Under the pieces are notes generated by a model that saw only the letters and a list, made by a program, of their open reading frames with translations, was not told the origin of the DNA and ran no database searches. A stretch of 64,000 nt of DNA from Cryptosporidium bovis (taxonomy: Eukaryota; Apicomplexa; Conoidasida; Eucoccidiorida; Cryptosporidiidae), in assembly GCA_009768925.2 (NCBI GenBank), contig VHIT02000027.1, positions 310,001 through 374,000 of the forward strand, given 5' to 3'. Of this stretch, positions 46,892 through 59,881 are shown one piece after another. The translations under genes and the position numbers were made by a program. Within the stretch, counting starts at the first letter, position 1; every line of letters begins with the position of its first letter.

Positions 46892-47368
46892 TACGCAACT
46901 ATTCTCTCTCGTATTGATCAAATAAATATGTTTCTCACACTTTTACTTTCATGTATATTATTTATACTCAATATTTATCCTTTTCGACTTAGTATTCTTA
47001 CTTTACATCTAATTTATTCTCTTTAATTCAAAAAGGATTTGCTTATTTTCCCCCGAATACGCGCGTGTAACTTGAAGGGTACCGAAAATCACGTCATGGC
47101 GCCGTTTCGCGGCGCCATGTCGTATTTTATTGTATTTAGGGTAAGGCCACCACCATTCCTAATTTTAAACAGAAACATAAGATAGTAGTTATCTCGTATA
47201 CGGCACAAGAAGGCATAATTATTTGTTCTCTGGGCACTGAAACGCTAACAAAGAACCTAAATTTTACTCCATTGAATTGGGAATATCGTAATAATATACA
47301 TTGTATTAACAATAAGAGTTTGGATAACAAGGTAGAATTACGATCGAGGGTGTACAAGTACGCTAAAA
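46892..47368. other. Divergent promoter region between UBR ligase and NSA2
   Basis: 477 bases with a paired GGCGCC inverted repeat at 47095-47119 roughly midway between the two ATGs, and a GC-rich patch (ACGCGCG near 47059). Confidence 0.7.
47095..47119. promoter_or_regulatory. Paired E2F-like sites in a perfect inverted repeat
   Basis: CATGGCGCCG (47095-47104) and CGGCGCCATG (47110-47119) are perfect inverted arms around a 5-nt spacer. Each arm contains a GGCGCC palindrome. They lie 204 bases from the UBR ligase start and 250 bases from the NSA2 start. Confidence 0.75.
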
Positions 47369-50565: not shown

Positions 50566-50889
50566 TTATTTAGAATTCTCACATTCTTTGTATCTTCTGT
50601 TTGACATTAAGAAGAGGTTGAAATCATTCACAATAGTACTATTTGAATTCTCCATTCTTATAAAATTTCGCAAATTATCGCTTTTAATCACAAACTTTCC
50701 ATTACTCGTTTCTATACTTTTCTTTAAACACTCTTCTATGTATTTTTGTCCTGCTAAACTGACAACTTTAAATACATCCTTGTCGTTAGACTTGGCTCCT
50801 TGTTTATTCATTATGTACTCAACATACTCACTCGGAAATACAAGGCAATCCGAATCATTTATTTCGTCATTCTTATGGTCGTTTACCAT
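50566..50889 (-). CDS. TAF10: TAF10-like histone-fold protein (TFIID/SAGA)
   Basis: 107 aa. The core FPSEYVEYIMNKQGAKSNDK followed by VFKVVSLAGQKYIEECLK matches the TAF10 pattern (I/FP-x3-V-x2-YYLN-x2-G...D-x-R-I/V-x2-L-I/VSLAAQKFI). A third helix with FVIKSDNLRNFIRM follows, corresponding to the LTMEDL segment. In yeast and animals TAF10 pairs with TAF3/TAF8 or SPT7 through this fold. The protein lacks the long N-terminal extension. The small size makes the assignment moderate, but helix spacing supports it. Confidence 0.68.
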   Translation of the reverse strand: MVNDHKNDEINDSDCLVFPSEYVEYIMNKQGAKSNDKDVFKVVSLAGQKYIEECLKKSIETSNGKFVIKSDNLRNFIRMENSNSTIVNDFNLFLMSNRRYKECENSK

Positions 50890-54253: not shown

Positions 54254-54515
54254 ACCAAAATCACCGTTATGTGACTATTTGCAAATTGCAATATAAATTC
54301 AAGTGCAAAAATGTAAAACATGCATTATTTAGTAGATAAATTTTACTTCTCATTTACTAAATATTGAGATCATTTTTACTTATCATTTTCTCGTTCCCCT
54401 CTTACGAAGTTTTCTGTTGTAATACAAATTTATTAGCTACGCTATCACCGCTATTCACTGAAAACCCAACATCTATTCTAAGTTTGTACGGACGCTATCA
54501 TTCATTATTACTTGG

Positions 54516-54520
54516 AAAAA
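54516..54520 (-). terminator. Putative pol III terminator (T5)
   Basis: First run of four or more T on the minus strand downstream of the tRNA; 93 bases beyond the tRNA 3' end. Confidence 0.55.
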
Positions 54521-54611
54521 GTGCACTTTACCTACGTGACTCTTGTTACCCCACCCCAACTGTGACAACGCGCCACAGAGCGGGCCAGCCTCTGAATACT
54601 TGTAACAAGAG
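54516..54611 (-). ncRNA. Candidate structured RNA co-transcribed 3' of tRNA-Met
   Basis: On the minus strand the element follows the tRNA by one base. Its outer stem is a perfect 10-bp inverted repeat (CTCTTGTTAC at 54540-54549, GTAACAAGAG at 54602-54611, plus-strand coordinates) enclosing 52 bases. Hand-counted GC is 40/72 (about 56%), far above the flanks. Inner arms CTGTG/CACAG (54560-54578) and CAGAG/CTCTG (54576-54594) overlap by 3 bases and would compete. No T4 run occurs after the tRNA until TTTTT at 54520-54516. The family is unknown. Confidence 0.5.
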
Positions 54612-54612
54612 A

Positions 54613-54685
54613 GGAGCTGACGGGACTCGAACCCGTGACCTCGAGGGTATGAATCTCGCGCACTAGCCAACTATGCGACAGCTCC
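54613..54685 (-). tRNA. tRNA-Met (anticodon CAU)
   Basis: 73 nt. Acceptor stem GGAGCTG/CAGCTCC gives 7 perfect pairs; the D-arm is GCAT/GTGC with a 9-nt loop containing GG; the T-arm is ACGGG/CCCGT with loop TTCGAGT. The anticodon loop TTCATAC places CAT at 34-36. The last pair of the anticodon stem is an A-C mismatch (31/39), leaving four good pairs. The first pair is G-C and the anticodon stem lacks three consecutive G-C pairs, so this is the elongator rather than the initiator type. No intron. CCA is not encoded. Confidence 0.93.
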
Positions 54686-55618: not shown

Positions 55619-58600
55619 CTAAATGTTCTTTTTTACTGATGTTTTACATTCTTCCTTGTGTCTTGTAATTAGCGAAAATAATAAAAATGTAAAGAAAGAT
55701 GTAATTAGTGATATTAAACAAAACTCAATTCTCCAACTAAATGGCATGACATTTGAGTCTATTGGTCCAGAGAATGGTCTTGATGACGGATTTATTATTG
55801 TAATACCAAATAACTTAATCACGGACCTCTTAATATTATCAACGTCGCAATTAACTCTAAACATACATGTAAATGGATTCGGTCCCGTGAAGATAAGTAC
55901 TGAATAAACAACAATATTAATTGAAATTGAAATAAAAATAATAGGGTTCTTGTAAAATGGTCTCCTAAATTGGGATCCCATTGTATAACATAAGGCTGTC
56001 GTCAAAATTTGGATGGAGCTGTATACCCAACAAGAAACGAATTCAATATTGTCCATTCTCATAAACCAATTTTGGGCAGGAATTTGCATGTTGTATTCAA
56101 ATGAAGACACAAACCACGATTTTGAACTAAGACTATATGACATAACAATGTAACCAACCAAATAGACTGTTATTGGTACCAATAACAAAAGAATAAATCT
56201 CAGACTTGCAATGCTTCCAAATGGCCTGGCAGCCGCAAGTCTCCTGCACGGTGATGAGAAAATATACCCAACTAAAAGCATTGTGTGAGTGAAAAAAGCA
56301 ACGAATGAGCTGGCAATGTCTGGAATCGCAGAATAAGCAAAGTGGGTAAGCAAAGTTTCATTCAGTCCCGTAGAAATTCCATAATAAATTAAGTAAAGTA
56401 AGAAGGACATCGCAGTTGCCAGACTGCTCCTTCCTTCTCTTATTATTTCCAAAACCGAATTTAAGTCCGAATTTGTTGAGTTAAATGGGGCAACCAAAGA
56501 TGCATCGCCTTTTGAAAATGAAAGGCCGACATGTGCCATCCTTAGAGCGCCACAGTCGTTACCACCATCACCAACCATTCCTGTAACTAATCCTCTTCTC
56601 ATAAAGAAACTAACAATTTCAACTTTATCATTCGGAGACATTCTTGCGTAAACATTAACTTTTTTCAATATTCGCTCCAATCTACTTTCTTTGTTCATTA
56701 ATAAACTTACTTCATCATCCATCAGTTTTCCTTTTTCAATATCTAAATTGGAGGGGGCGCGCGTGTAATGTTCCCTAAGAAGAACACGAAGACAATCCCC
56801 AGTGAGCACGAGATTTGAGAATTTGTTCGGAGATGCTTCAGTGTAAATCTCTGAATCTGGAATAATTCTTAATGTTTCTGTGCAACGCCATACAACAGTT
56901 CCCTCTGGATCAGACCCATCCTTATGCTTCAACTCTGACAAGGCGGTACCTGTGCCATTACTATTGACCATGCCAAGCTTCGTAGCAGTGCTGAGACCTG
57001 TTAGTGGAGAATCTCCAGTGACCATAAGTGGGAGCACGTCTGCCTTAACTAGTTGCGAGAGGACACTTGGAGCTTCATCTCTAATGCTGTTTTCAAAAAC
57101 AAGTATGCCTAAAGGTGTGAGTTCGTTTTCCAGTTCGCCTCTGCCTAGAGTGAGATAAGGCCCAACCAAATTCGAATCTATTTTTTTATAGGCAGAAAAA
57201 ATAAGATAGTAACCTCGGGAAGAGAGGGAGTTTATTCTTTTTTTAAGTTCGTTGCTTGTATTGTCTGCTAAAAGAGTAATAATGGACTCTGGAGCTCCTT
57301 TTGTGAAAAGGTAATACTTTTCGGTGGTCCTGCATTTAACAAGAACACTCATGAGTCTTCTGTTGTAATCAAATGGAAAAACTCTGAGAATTTCCAGAGT
57401 ACTGAAAACCGGATTTGAATTCTCTTTGCAGGCATTTTTCTCAAAAATTGATTTTATAAGTACCTTCTCCGACCCAGATATCTTTTCAAAGTAACTTCCT
57501 GTTACAGAAAACAAGGCTTTGTCAGTATCGTTTCCATTCAGTTTCGAGTAATAAATCTTTTGATTTGACACCTCTTCATGGGAAAGACCGAAGTTGGAGG
57601 GAGAATGGCTTAATGTAGTACAGCTTCTGATTGAAAGAAAAGCTAGCTGATAATTCTTTTTCATCTCTTCTACAGAAACTATTTCATTTGAAGATGAATG
57701 ATAAACAATGTTGCTGGCTTCGCCATTTACATTATAAACTTGTCTACTCTTTAAAGTGTTTTCTCCTGCCTCTCCTTTCACTAATTCACCCTTATAGTCG
57801 TTCAAAGTCTCAATCGGGGAAAGGCCAATGAAATCCAGGTGGTCATTAGTTAACGTACCTGTTTTATCAAAACACATTACCCTCAACTTTCCCCCCAATA
57901 TTATTCTTGTTGGGACAAGGGCCTTAACCTTGAATCTACTGAAAAGACGCCTACAAGCCACATTCTGCGATAAAGTGCTTAGAACTCCTAAATATAGAGG
58001 GTAGATTGAGTTCATTGTTCCAAGTGCAAAAAAGAATGTGAAGAGACTCCAATTGTATGATCTTCCTTGTTTCACTATGAAAACTATAACCAACACAGTT
58101 AAACACAGCCAAGTGATCGGAAGTTGATCAAACATATCAAAATTGAATTTGCTCGGATATAGAATAGACCTTATAATGCGCCCTCTAAGTGTGGAGATTC
58201 CTGTTCTTATTACAAGAGCTGTGGTTCCACCACTTTGATTGTTGTTACGCTCACGATTCAGATCTTGTTGTTCAGTTGAGTCAACTGAAGTCATATTTCC
58301 AAAAGAATCGGTTGATCTCGTTGATGCAGTTGGAATGCCTTGAAGACAGATAGGTGAAGAGGAACAACTACCTCCAAAAAGCAGTCCTTTTCCAACATTT
58401 CCATAAACAGCAGTAATATTCGTGCCAGCATACAAAAAATGCTTTTTTGTGGAAAAAGGTCCATCTTCAGGGGATATTTTGTCGCTTTCAGATTCAGAAA
58501 CTGGCATCTTAATAACTTCAGCAGACTCACCTGTAAGCATTGACTCGTTCACAACCGCAGATCCAGAAAGCAACAACAGGTCGCATGGAGCAATTGTATT

Positions 58601-59881
58601 CTCATCCAGATATACAACATCACCAGGTACGAGATCATGTGGTTCAATTGAAACTATTCTACCGTCTCTGATAGTCTTTATTGAATCTGTTGATTTCATT
58701 TCCGCCAACTTTCTTACATTCCTTACACTTACAAAATGAGTCCTTATGTTTGCTATTATGCTTATGATCATCATAGGTACCCATTTAACAGCGAAAAATA
58801 TGTATCCTTGGAAAGTATATGATGAAACTATCAACAGCTGAAAAATAGTTAAGGGGTCCATAATTTCGTTTATTAGTCCGTATATTAAAGAAGGCACCTC
58901 GATTGTTATCTCATTTCTTCCATAAGATTGTTTCTGTTCAAATACTGTTTTAGAGTCCAGACCCCTTATTTGTGATATATTGTTGTCAGATGAGAATGGT
59001 GTTTCAATAGTTCTGTCACGGCCATTCATCATTGATTTCTCATTCGAACACAAATTTGGTCTAAATTGTAAAAGTTCCATAACATTACTGACACTGTATA
59101 TATCGTTTCCCAAGGAACCCGTATTGTTTATCATTCCCTCTCCATCAGTACCATCAGAATCACCGTTGGATTCTTCCATGCAAGTAAATCTTTCAAGTTT
59201 CTCAGAGTACCAGTACCTAACACAAAGCAATTCAAAATAAGACTTTTCACCTGAATTATCACCCTTATTAACACGAACAGTATATAGGTTATATCCAGAA
59301 AAATCATTGTTTAAAAAAGCTGAAAGTTTGTTAAATGGCCTAAGTATTGTGTCTAGAAATGTTTTTAACCTTGAATTCTTGCTATTAATCGTATTATTGG
59401 TGAGATCAAGATTACCCGAAGCTTTTTGCCATATACAAACATAGTCGGCATCTTTCAATTCACTTGGAACCAAAAAGAACTGTTTAAAAAATGTCTTTGT
59501 AATTCTATAGAAAAAGCAAATGGCAAAACACTCAAGCCATAAACATATAAATGTTATTGCTCTCGTGTTCCAATAAAGAGCCAATTGTCTCCTGTCGCAT
59601 CCTGCTGTATCATAAGTATGTATCATTATGAACAAAAATGGAAGAAAAGTGGAAATTATTACAGACAATTTCAATAAACTCCCAATTGCAGAGTTTTTGT
59701 ATCCTCTTTGAGCTCCATCAAACGACTCACCACGATTTCCCTTGTTAAATTTACATGTTGCTCTTTTATTTCTATAAAAAGACCAAAAATAACCCATTAT
59801 CCCCGCAATCAGTAAATTGTATATTGTTATCTTCCCAACATCCCAACTTATTATTGGTTCTGAAGGATTGTGTAGTTCCAT
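55619..59881 (-). CDS. P5B-type ATPase (ATP13A family) cation/polyamine transporter
   Basis: 1420 aa from ATG at 59881; the open frame runs 25 codons further but begins at TTG. P-type hallmarks: TGES near 447, phosphorylation motif DKTGTLTNDHLDF near 670, KGAPESI, and the hinge GDGGNDCGALRMAHVGLSFS near 1102, with Gly in place of the usual Ala of GDGAND. The run after it (KGDASLVAPFNS) and EIIREGRSSLATA match the P5 group. M4 has YPLYLG where P5B proteins carry PPALP and P5A carry PPELP. About ten to twelve helices in all. P5B members sit in late endosome or lysosome-like membranes and export polyamines; P5A acts in the ER. P5B is favoured, but the M4 motif is degenerate. Confidence 0.85.
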   Translation of the reverse strand: MELHNPSEPIISWDVGKITIYNLLIAGIMGYFWSFYRNKRATCKFNKGNRGESFDGAQRGYKNSAIGSLLKLSVIISTFLPFLFIMIHTYDTAGCDRRQLALYWNTRAITFICLWLECFAICFFYRITKTFFKQFFLVPSELKDADYVCIWQKASGNLDLTNNTINSKNSRLKTFLDTILRPFNKLSAFLNNDFSGYNLYTVRVNKGDNSGEKSYFELLCVRYWYSEKLERFTCMEESNGDSDGTDGEGMINNTGSLGNDIYSVSNVMELLQFRPNLCSNEKSMMNGRDRTIETPFSSDNNISQIRGLDSKTVFEQKQSYGRNEITIEVPSLIYGLINEIMDPLTIFQLLIVSSYTFQGYIFFAVKWVPMMIISIIANIRTHFVSVRNVRKLAEMKSTDSIKTIRDGRIVSIEPHDLVPGDVVYLDENTIAPCDLLLLSGSAVVNESMLTGESAEVIKMPVSESESDKISPEDGPFSTKKHFLYAGTNITAVYGNVGKGLLFGGSCSSSPICLQGIPTASTRSTDSFGNMTSVDSTEQQDLNRERNNNQSGGTTALVIRTGISTLRGRIIRSILYPSKFNFDMFDQLPITWLCLTVLVIVFIVKQGRSYNWSLFTFFFALGTMNSIYPLYLGVLSTLSQNVACRRLFSRFKVKALVPTRIILGGKLRVMCFDKTGTLTNDHLDFIGLSPIETLNDYKGELVKGEAGENTLKSRQVYNVNGEASNIVYHSSSNEIVSVEEMKKNYQLAFLSIRSCTTLSHSPSNFGLSHEEVSNQKIYYSKLNGNDTDKALFSVTGSYFEKISGSEKVLIKSIFEKNACKENSNPVFSTLEILRVFPFDYNRRLMSVLVKCRTTEKYYLFTKGAPESIITLLADNTSNELKKRINSLSSRGYYLIFSAYKKIDSNLVGPYLTLGRGELENELTPLGILVFENSIRDEAPSVLSQLVKADVLPLMVTGDSPLTGLSTATKLGMVNSNGTGTALSELKHKDGSDPEGTVVWRCTETLRIIPDSEIYTEASPNKFSNLVLTGDCLRVLLREHYTRAPSNLDIEKGKLMDDEVSLLMNKESRLERILKKVNVYARMSPNDKVEIVSFFMRRGLVTGMVGDGGNDCGALRMAHVGLSFSKGDASLVAPFNSTNSDLNSVLEIIREGRSSLATAMSFLLYLIYYGISTGLNETLLTHFAYSAIPDIASSFVAFFTHTMLLVGYIFSSPCRRLAAARPFGSIASLRFILLLLVPITVYLVGYIVMSYSLSSKSWFVSSFEYNMQIPAQNWFMRMDNIEFVSCWVYSSIQILTTALCYTMGSQFRRPFYKNPIIFISISINIVVYSVLIFTGPNPFTCMFRVNCDVDNIKRSVIKLFGITIINPSSRPFSGPIDSNVMPFSWRIEFCLISLITSFFTFLLFSLITRHKEECKTSVKKNI

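Follow-up and report, generated by a model that had tools for sequence, protein, structure and literature searches.

The window, i.e. the whole 64,000-nucleotide stretch of Cryptosporidium bovis DNA that was analysed, carries on its minus strand a gene for tRNA-Met(CAT) of the non-initiator type at positions 54612–54685 (Rfam RF00005, 59.5 bits; T-loop TTCGAGT), followed in the direction of transcription by a 72-nt hairpin element at 54540–54611 (minus strand). The tRNA bounds given by ARAGORN are 54611–54685 (minus), those given by Rfam 54612–54685; the acceptor stem ends at 54613, base 73 is a T at 54612, and the element begins at 54611. It is closed by a perfect 10-bp stem, whose 5′ arm CTCTTGTTAC (54602–54611, minus) stands directly after base 73 and whose 3′ arm GTAACAAGAG occupies 54540–54549 (minus). 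Beyond the element lies a T5 at 54516–54520 (minus), the first run of three or more T past the tRNA and presumably the terminator for Pol III; the whole predicted trailer, which tRNase Z would be expected to release, comes to as much as 96 nt (54516–54611, minus). An open reading frame at 55619–59881 (minus), which lies upstream of the tRNA gene at a distance of about 0.9 kb, was recognized with Pfam as a P-type ATPase, residues 560–1000 of which share 94% identity with a protein of C. xiaoi, 72% with C. ryanae and 54% with C. parvum; matches in C. ubiquitum and C. andersoni were obtained as well. A 107-residue open reading frame at 50566–50889 (minus) matches TAF10.

A tRNA family search of the genome (9.06 Mb in 43 contigs; 63 of 557 first-look candidates were scored) yielded 45 tRNA genes with 44 anticodons, CAT being the sole one present twice. 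The second CAT gene (locus L023) has A1:T72 and the T-loop ATCGAAA in place of TTCGAGT, features which we take to be the marks of initiator tRNA, so that it is read as initiator-type. On these presumed marks, the gene at 54612–54685 is the sole elongation-type (non-initiator) tRNA-Met among the 45 genes found. Position 73 is a T in each of the two tRNA-Met genes, the eukaryotic state in tRNA-Met being A73, and the last pair of the anticodon stem in the 54612–54685 gene appears in the Rfam alignment to be an A–C mismatch. A 22-nt piece of this tRNA-Met has matches in 10 viral contigs.

The sequence-only reading of this DNA had pointed to a perfect 10-bp inverted repeat one base past the 3′ end of the tRNA, and the arms CTCTTGTTAC and GTAACAAGAG, together with the single base 54612 between acceptor stem and element, bear it out. 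The element folds with a minimum free energy of −30.8 kcal/mol and a z of −3.55, one of 200 shuffles being as good. The z of the Met trailer varies with the piece chosen: other cuts give −2.91 for the first 70 nt counted from the ARAGORN end of the tRNA, −2.13 for the 90-nt stretch that reaches to the T5 and −1.53 for tRNA-Met plus trailer (170 nt), for which 16 of 200 shuffles were as good. Of 20,000 dinucleotide shuffles of the Met trailer, 0.015% gave a perfect inverted repeat of at least 10 bp that began within the first 4 nt, and 0.165% gave one at any place in 100 nt. When the 3′ flanks of the 45 tRNA genes were shuffled 500 times each, the expected number of such stems came to 0.02 at the start of a flank and 0.18 at any place. 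The Met stem is the longest perfect one in these flanks, the next having 8 bp. The repeat is nevertheless less special than that reading had held, because the 64-kb window contains 12 perfect inverted repeats of at least 10 bp with a span of 24–80, most of them AT-rich. The GC-richest of the 12 is a perfect hairpin at 47095–47119 with the arms CATGGCGCCG.

It had likewise been stated that no run of four or more T separates tRNA and element, and the position proves to be stronger than that, as even a run of three is missing until the T5, which starts at +90 and is separated from the element by 19 bases. All 45 tRNA flanks were scanned for such runs, the distances being counted from the tRNA ends given by ARAGORN. 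In 37 genes a run of at least four T starts no more than 8 nt past the tRNA; it is absent there in the remaining eight, where the first run of this kind is met at 24 nt (Pro-AGG), 38 nt (Val-CAC), 54 nt (Cys-GCA), 66 nt (Glu-TTC), 69 nt (Arg-CCT), 70 nt (Val-AAC), 90 nt (Met-CAT, 54612–54685) and 280 nt (Gly-GCC). At one locus, a distance of about 100 nt separates two tandem tRNA-Arg genes (TCT and ACG), both of which have a T-run of their own. Among the Pol III controls, the single U6 gene has a T-run at its end, and the four 5S genes have a T5 within 4 nt of theirs. Given 90 nt with no run of three T, against a run of four or more within 8 nt in 37 of the 45 genes, co-transcription of the element is well supported; since the gene is also the sole elongation-type tRNA-Met found, transcription of the element appears nearly forced. 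The hairpin element is, to judge from these sequence features, very probably transcribed together with tRNA-Met as a Pol III trailer. Non-canonical terminators are known from human tRNA genes, and termination of this kind may also occur at tRNA-Met, which counts against the explanation preferred below.

The first run of four or more T is a T5 in six of the seven long-trailer genes that reach one within 200 nt, as compared with 43% of background runs having at least five T (binomial p 0.029). Over their first 70 nt, the eight long-trailer flanks have a mean fold z of −1.13, whereas the 37 ordinary flanks average +0.11 over the 70 nt past their T-run (Mann–Whitney p 0.0095 between the two sets), and 45 control stretches at +300 to +370 average −0.11; the eight genes were chosen by their missing T-runs, a choice that by itself favours GC-rich sequence. 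The association of long trailers with folding is moderate, as singly only Met, Cys and Glu fall below −2 among the eight, and the flank of an ordinary gene, Gln-CTG, attains −3.79 in the 70 nt past its T5. The Cys and Glu trailers, strongly folding, likewise reach a T5. The Met trailer is real, unusually structured and almost certainly transcribed, and belongs with seven others to the long-trailer group within this set of 45 tRNA genes.

The element had further been described as about 56% GC in an AT-rich setting. Its composition, counted by eye, is indeed 40 G+C in 72, but this is not special to it, for tRNA genes of this genome share a GC-rich 3′ halo. Averaged over the 45 loci, GC is 0.41 at 0 to 20, 0.46 at +20 to +40 and 0.44 at +40 to +60 in the 3′ flanks, falling to about 0.30 or less beyond +200; upstream, it is 0.23 at −40 to −20 and 0.56 at −20 to 0. 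For the 45 genes as a group, the halo extends over some 80–100 nt downstream and 20 nt upstream and persists past the ordinary T-run. In the 37 ordinary genes, GC in the 70 nt past the T-run amounts to 0.42, compared with 0.30 at +300 to +370 (Wilcoxon p 1.5e-5), and four of these 37 flanks equal or exceed the Met element in GC over the same interval. The upstream profile, with a low of 0.17–0.18 at −40 to −30 and a rise between −20 and −15, would fit a start site preceded by a TATA-like box. At the four 5S genes, GC is 0.5–0.6 at −20 to 0 and just 0.28–0.42 at 0 to 60, so that downstream these genes show a faint halo at best.

In the thermodynamic model, the trailer stem of the released Met trailer has a pairing probability of 0.96, and in a precursor with no leader the acceptor helix of tRNA-Met stands at 0.98 with the trailer versus 1.00 bare. 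Under the same condition, addition of the trailer lowers the acceptor helix from 0.71 to 0.00 in Val-CAC, from 0.96 to 0.31 in Pro-AGG and from 0.94 to 0.57 in Val-AAC. The modelled values suggest that a self-folding trailer shields tRNA-Met; such shielding is not specific to Met, as the acceptor helices of the Arg, Cys, Gly and Glu long-trailer genes also stay at 0.91 or above with their trailers. The outcome depends on the leader: the Met acceptor helix is predicted at 0.37 with a leader of 10 nt and at 0.002 from 12 nt onwards, and the trailer stem at 0.52 with 15 nt and 0.002 with 18 nt. According to the model, which also disrupts ordinary tRNAs, the Met trailer folds apart from the tRNA when there is no leader and with leaders of up to 8 nt, and does not do so with 15–20 nt. 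Since the same model, given an 18-nt leader and the trailer, breaks up the acceptor helix of 16 among the 37 ordinary tRNA genes (values under 0.1), leader-dependent refolding is weak evidence either way; the predicted refolding of the Met precursor with such a leader counts against a self-folding trailer, at little weight.

An Rfam covariance search of the element, which the sequence-only reading had proposed as a check, returned no family for it. Between 53500 and 55700, the tRNA alone reaches the cut-off; a search of 54490–54612 up to E 10 gave one match (E 9.2, plus strand), and none of the Rfam matches to the element is a snoRNA. At 11 of the 45 tRNA loci (the seven other long-trailer genes and four ordinary ones), 27 matches up to E 1 were obtained, of which the 11 tRNAs alone lie above the cut-off. 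By eye, neither TGATGA nor CTGA is present in 54516–54611 (minus), in agreement with the earlier remark that no C/D or H/ACA boxes were recognised. Assignment as an H/ACA RNA, which would call for a two-sided internal pocket and an unpaired ACA placed three bases from the 3′ end, was tried and dropped: the ACA near the 3′ end, as judged by eye, sits inside the 10-bp stem and is not unpaired, and the large internal loop of the element, a candidate for the pocket, is one-sided (13 nt versus 0). No ATG-started open reading frame of at least 60 codons crosses the element. The 170-nt unit of tRNA and trailer has no second copy in the genome by a search that skips very common words, and exact searches of viral_contigs and genome_contigs with a 23-nt piece of the element found nothing.

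The 13-mer TGTTACAAGTATT (54595–54607) is present three times in exact form across the genome; two of these copies lie in tRNA 3′ flanks, namely those of Met and tRNA-Ser(CGA). With up to one mismatch it is found at 84 places, compared with 42 for its reversed control, and CAAGTA, among the over-represented words, is present in seven of 45 tRNA flanks where 1.27 are expected. Neither TGTTACAAGTATT nor these words was judged strong enough to constitute a common motif of tRNA flanks.

The most probable explanation, at roughly 0.58, is that the element constitutes a long self-folding 3′ trailer of the sole non-initiator tRNA-Met found, released by tRNase Z. Pol III would start at the tRNA promoter, meet no T-run at the 3′ end of the tRNA and continue to the T5 at 54516–54520. 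By the general pathway, tRNase Z would then cut after base 73 and set free a hairpin RNA that ends in a U tail and measures at most 96 nt. The hairpin, which begins with the first base of the trailer, would pair with itself and not with the tRNA, and its most likely role would be to stop a trailer that is long and rich in GC from intruding on the acceptor stem ahead of the cut. Once released, the hairpin RNA would more likely be degraded than kept. At the Met locus, a distal T-run is the first possible terminator, as a long structured trailer would have it. In this context one should consider the 3′-extended pre-tRNAs of yeast, where, in excerpts of the report (PMC4937561), Pol III likewise passes the tRNA end to a distal T-run and RNase Z can release the extension; in that system, however, a canonical terminator is read through and steady-state levels are low, whereas the Met locus has no proximal terminator and has a strong hairpin as its trailer.

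The sequence-only reading had gone further and seen a tRNA–ncRNA unit. Its first half, co-transcription, stands by the reasoning given above; its second, a separate functional ncRNA, has no support from an Rfam family, snoRNA boxes or a second copy. A dicistronic gene in the full sense, whose second product would be a stable, conserved hairpin RNA with a job of its own, freed by tRNase Z, is a minority reading with perhaps one chance in a few. The perfect stem from trailer base 1, the strong fold and the nearly forced transcription all agree with it. Plants reportedly have dicistronic tRNA–snoRNA genes, which Kruszka is said to have described in 2003, transcribed as one Pol III unit and cut by RNase Z; there, too, a second structured RNA follows close behind the tRNA, and at the Met locus, as there, no T-run intervenes, but the snoRNA boxes of the plant genes are not seen. 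A viral precedent is provided by the TMERs of MHV68 (PMC4838037), which, as far as excerpts of that paper go, are Pol III units of a tRNA-like part and hairpins cut by tRNase Z; they differ from the Met unit in being viral, in having two hairpins and in being matured by Dicer. Dicer and Argonaute are reported absent from C. parvum (PMC12246861), and the titles and abstracts of the literature matches listed include no description of a tRNA-linked ncRNA in Cryptosporidium. Against a dicistronic gene speak the lack of an Rfam match, of TGATGA, CTGA or an unpaired 3′ ACA and of a second copy in the genome. Moreover, GC-richness and a missing proximal T-run are common to other tRNA genes, and since both belong to a wider pattern in this genome, a dedicated ncRNA gene is less likely than a mere trailer that is long and structured.

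On the other hand, the locus could be a product of chance: a tRNA flank rich in GC would have lost its proximal T-run and come to carry an inverted repeat by accident. The group-wide GC halo, the 12 comparable repeats in the window and a z of merely −1.53 for tRNA plus trailer are what such an accident would look like; it is improbable all the same in view of the element's own z and of the 0.02 stems expected at trailer starts over 45 genes (0.18 anywhere). Scarcely better placed, and if anything a shade less so, is the idea that the hairpin belongs to the terminator and assists the T5. According to excerpts of a yeast study (PMC9278858), a nascent-RNA hairpin upstream of a weak T-run stimulates Pol III termination when it adjoins the run or lies 7 nt off, and is ineffective at 18 nt. 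A gap of 1 nt in Pro-AGG, Cys-GCA and Val-AAC, and of 2 nt in Glu-TTC, separates the end of a predicted stem from the T5, but at Met 19 nt intervene, and because of this gap the mechanism is rejected for Met. The palindrome AAAGTGCACTTT at 54518–54529 overlaps the T5, yet its hairpin is absent from the predicted fold of the trailer. Least credible by far is a MITE-like small inverted-repeat insertion into the terminator: its terminal 10-bp inverted repeats would suit one, but a single copy was found in the genome (by the search that skips very common words), and no target-site duplication is seen on reading the sequence.

A broader proposal is that tRNA-hosted small RNAs form a set in Cryptosporidium: some eight of 45 tRNA genes would have given up their proximal terminator for a different downstream structured RNA each, promoterless and released by tRNase Z. 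This is doubtful, more so than a dedicated RNA at the Met locus and less so than an accident of sequence; if true, the RNAs would be made in step with tRNA, in a lineage reported to be without Dicer and Argonaute. Should the trailers be stable RNAs, they would let Cryptosporidium, a genus with few listed snoRNAs (for C. parvum, PMC12246861 gives four of the H/ACA and five of the C/D type), produce small RNAs from its tRNA genes in a compact way. Even if they are plain trailers, eight of 45 tRNA genes without a near T-run, together with the GC halo, would allow testable predictions on how Pol III terminates and how pre-tRNA is processed in apicomplexans.
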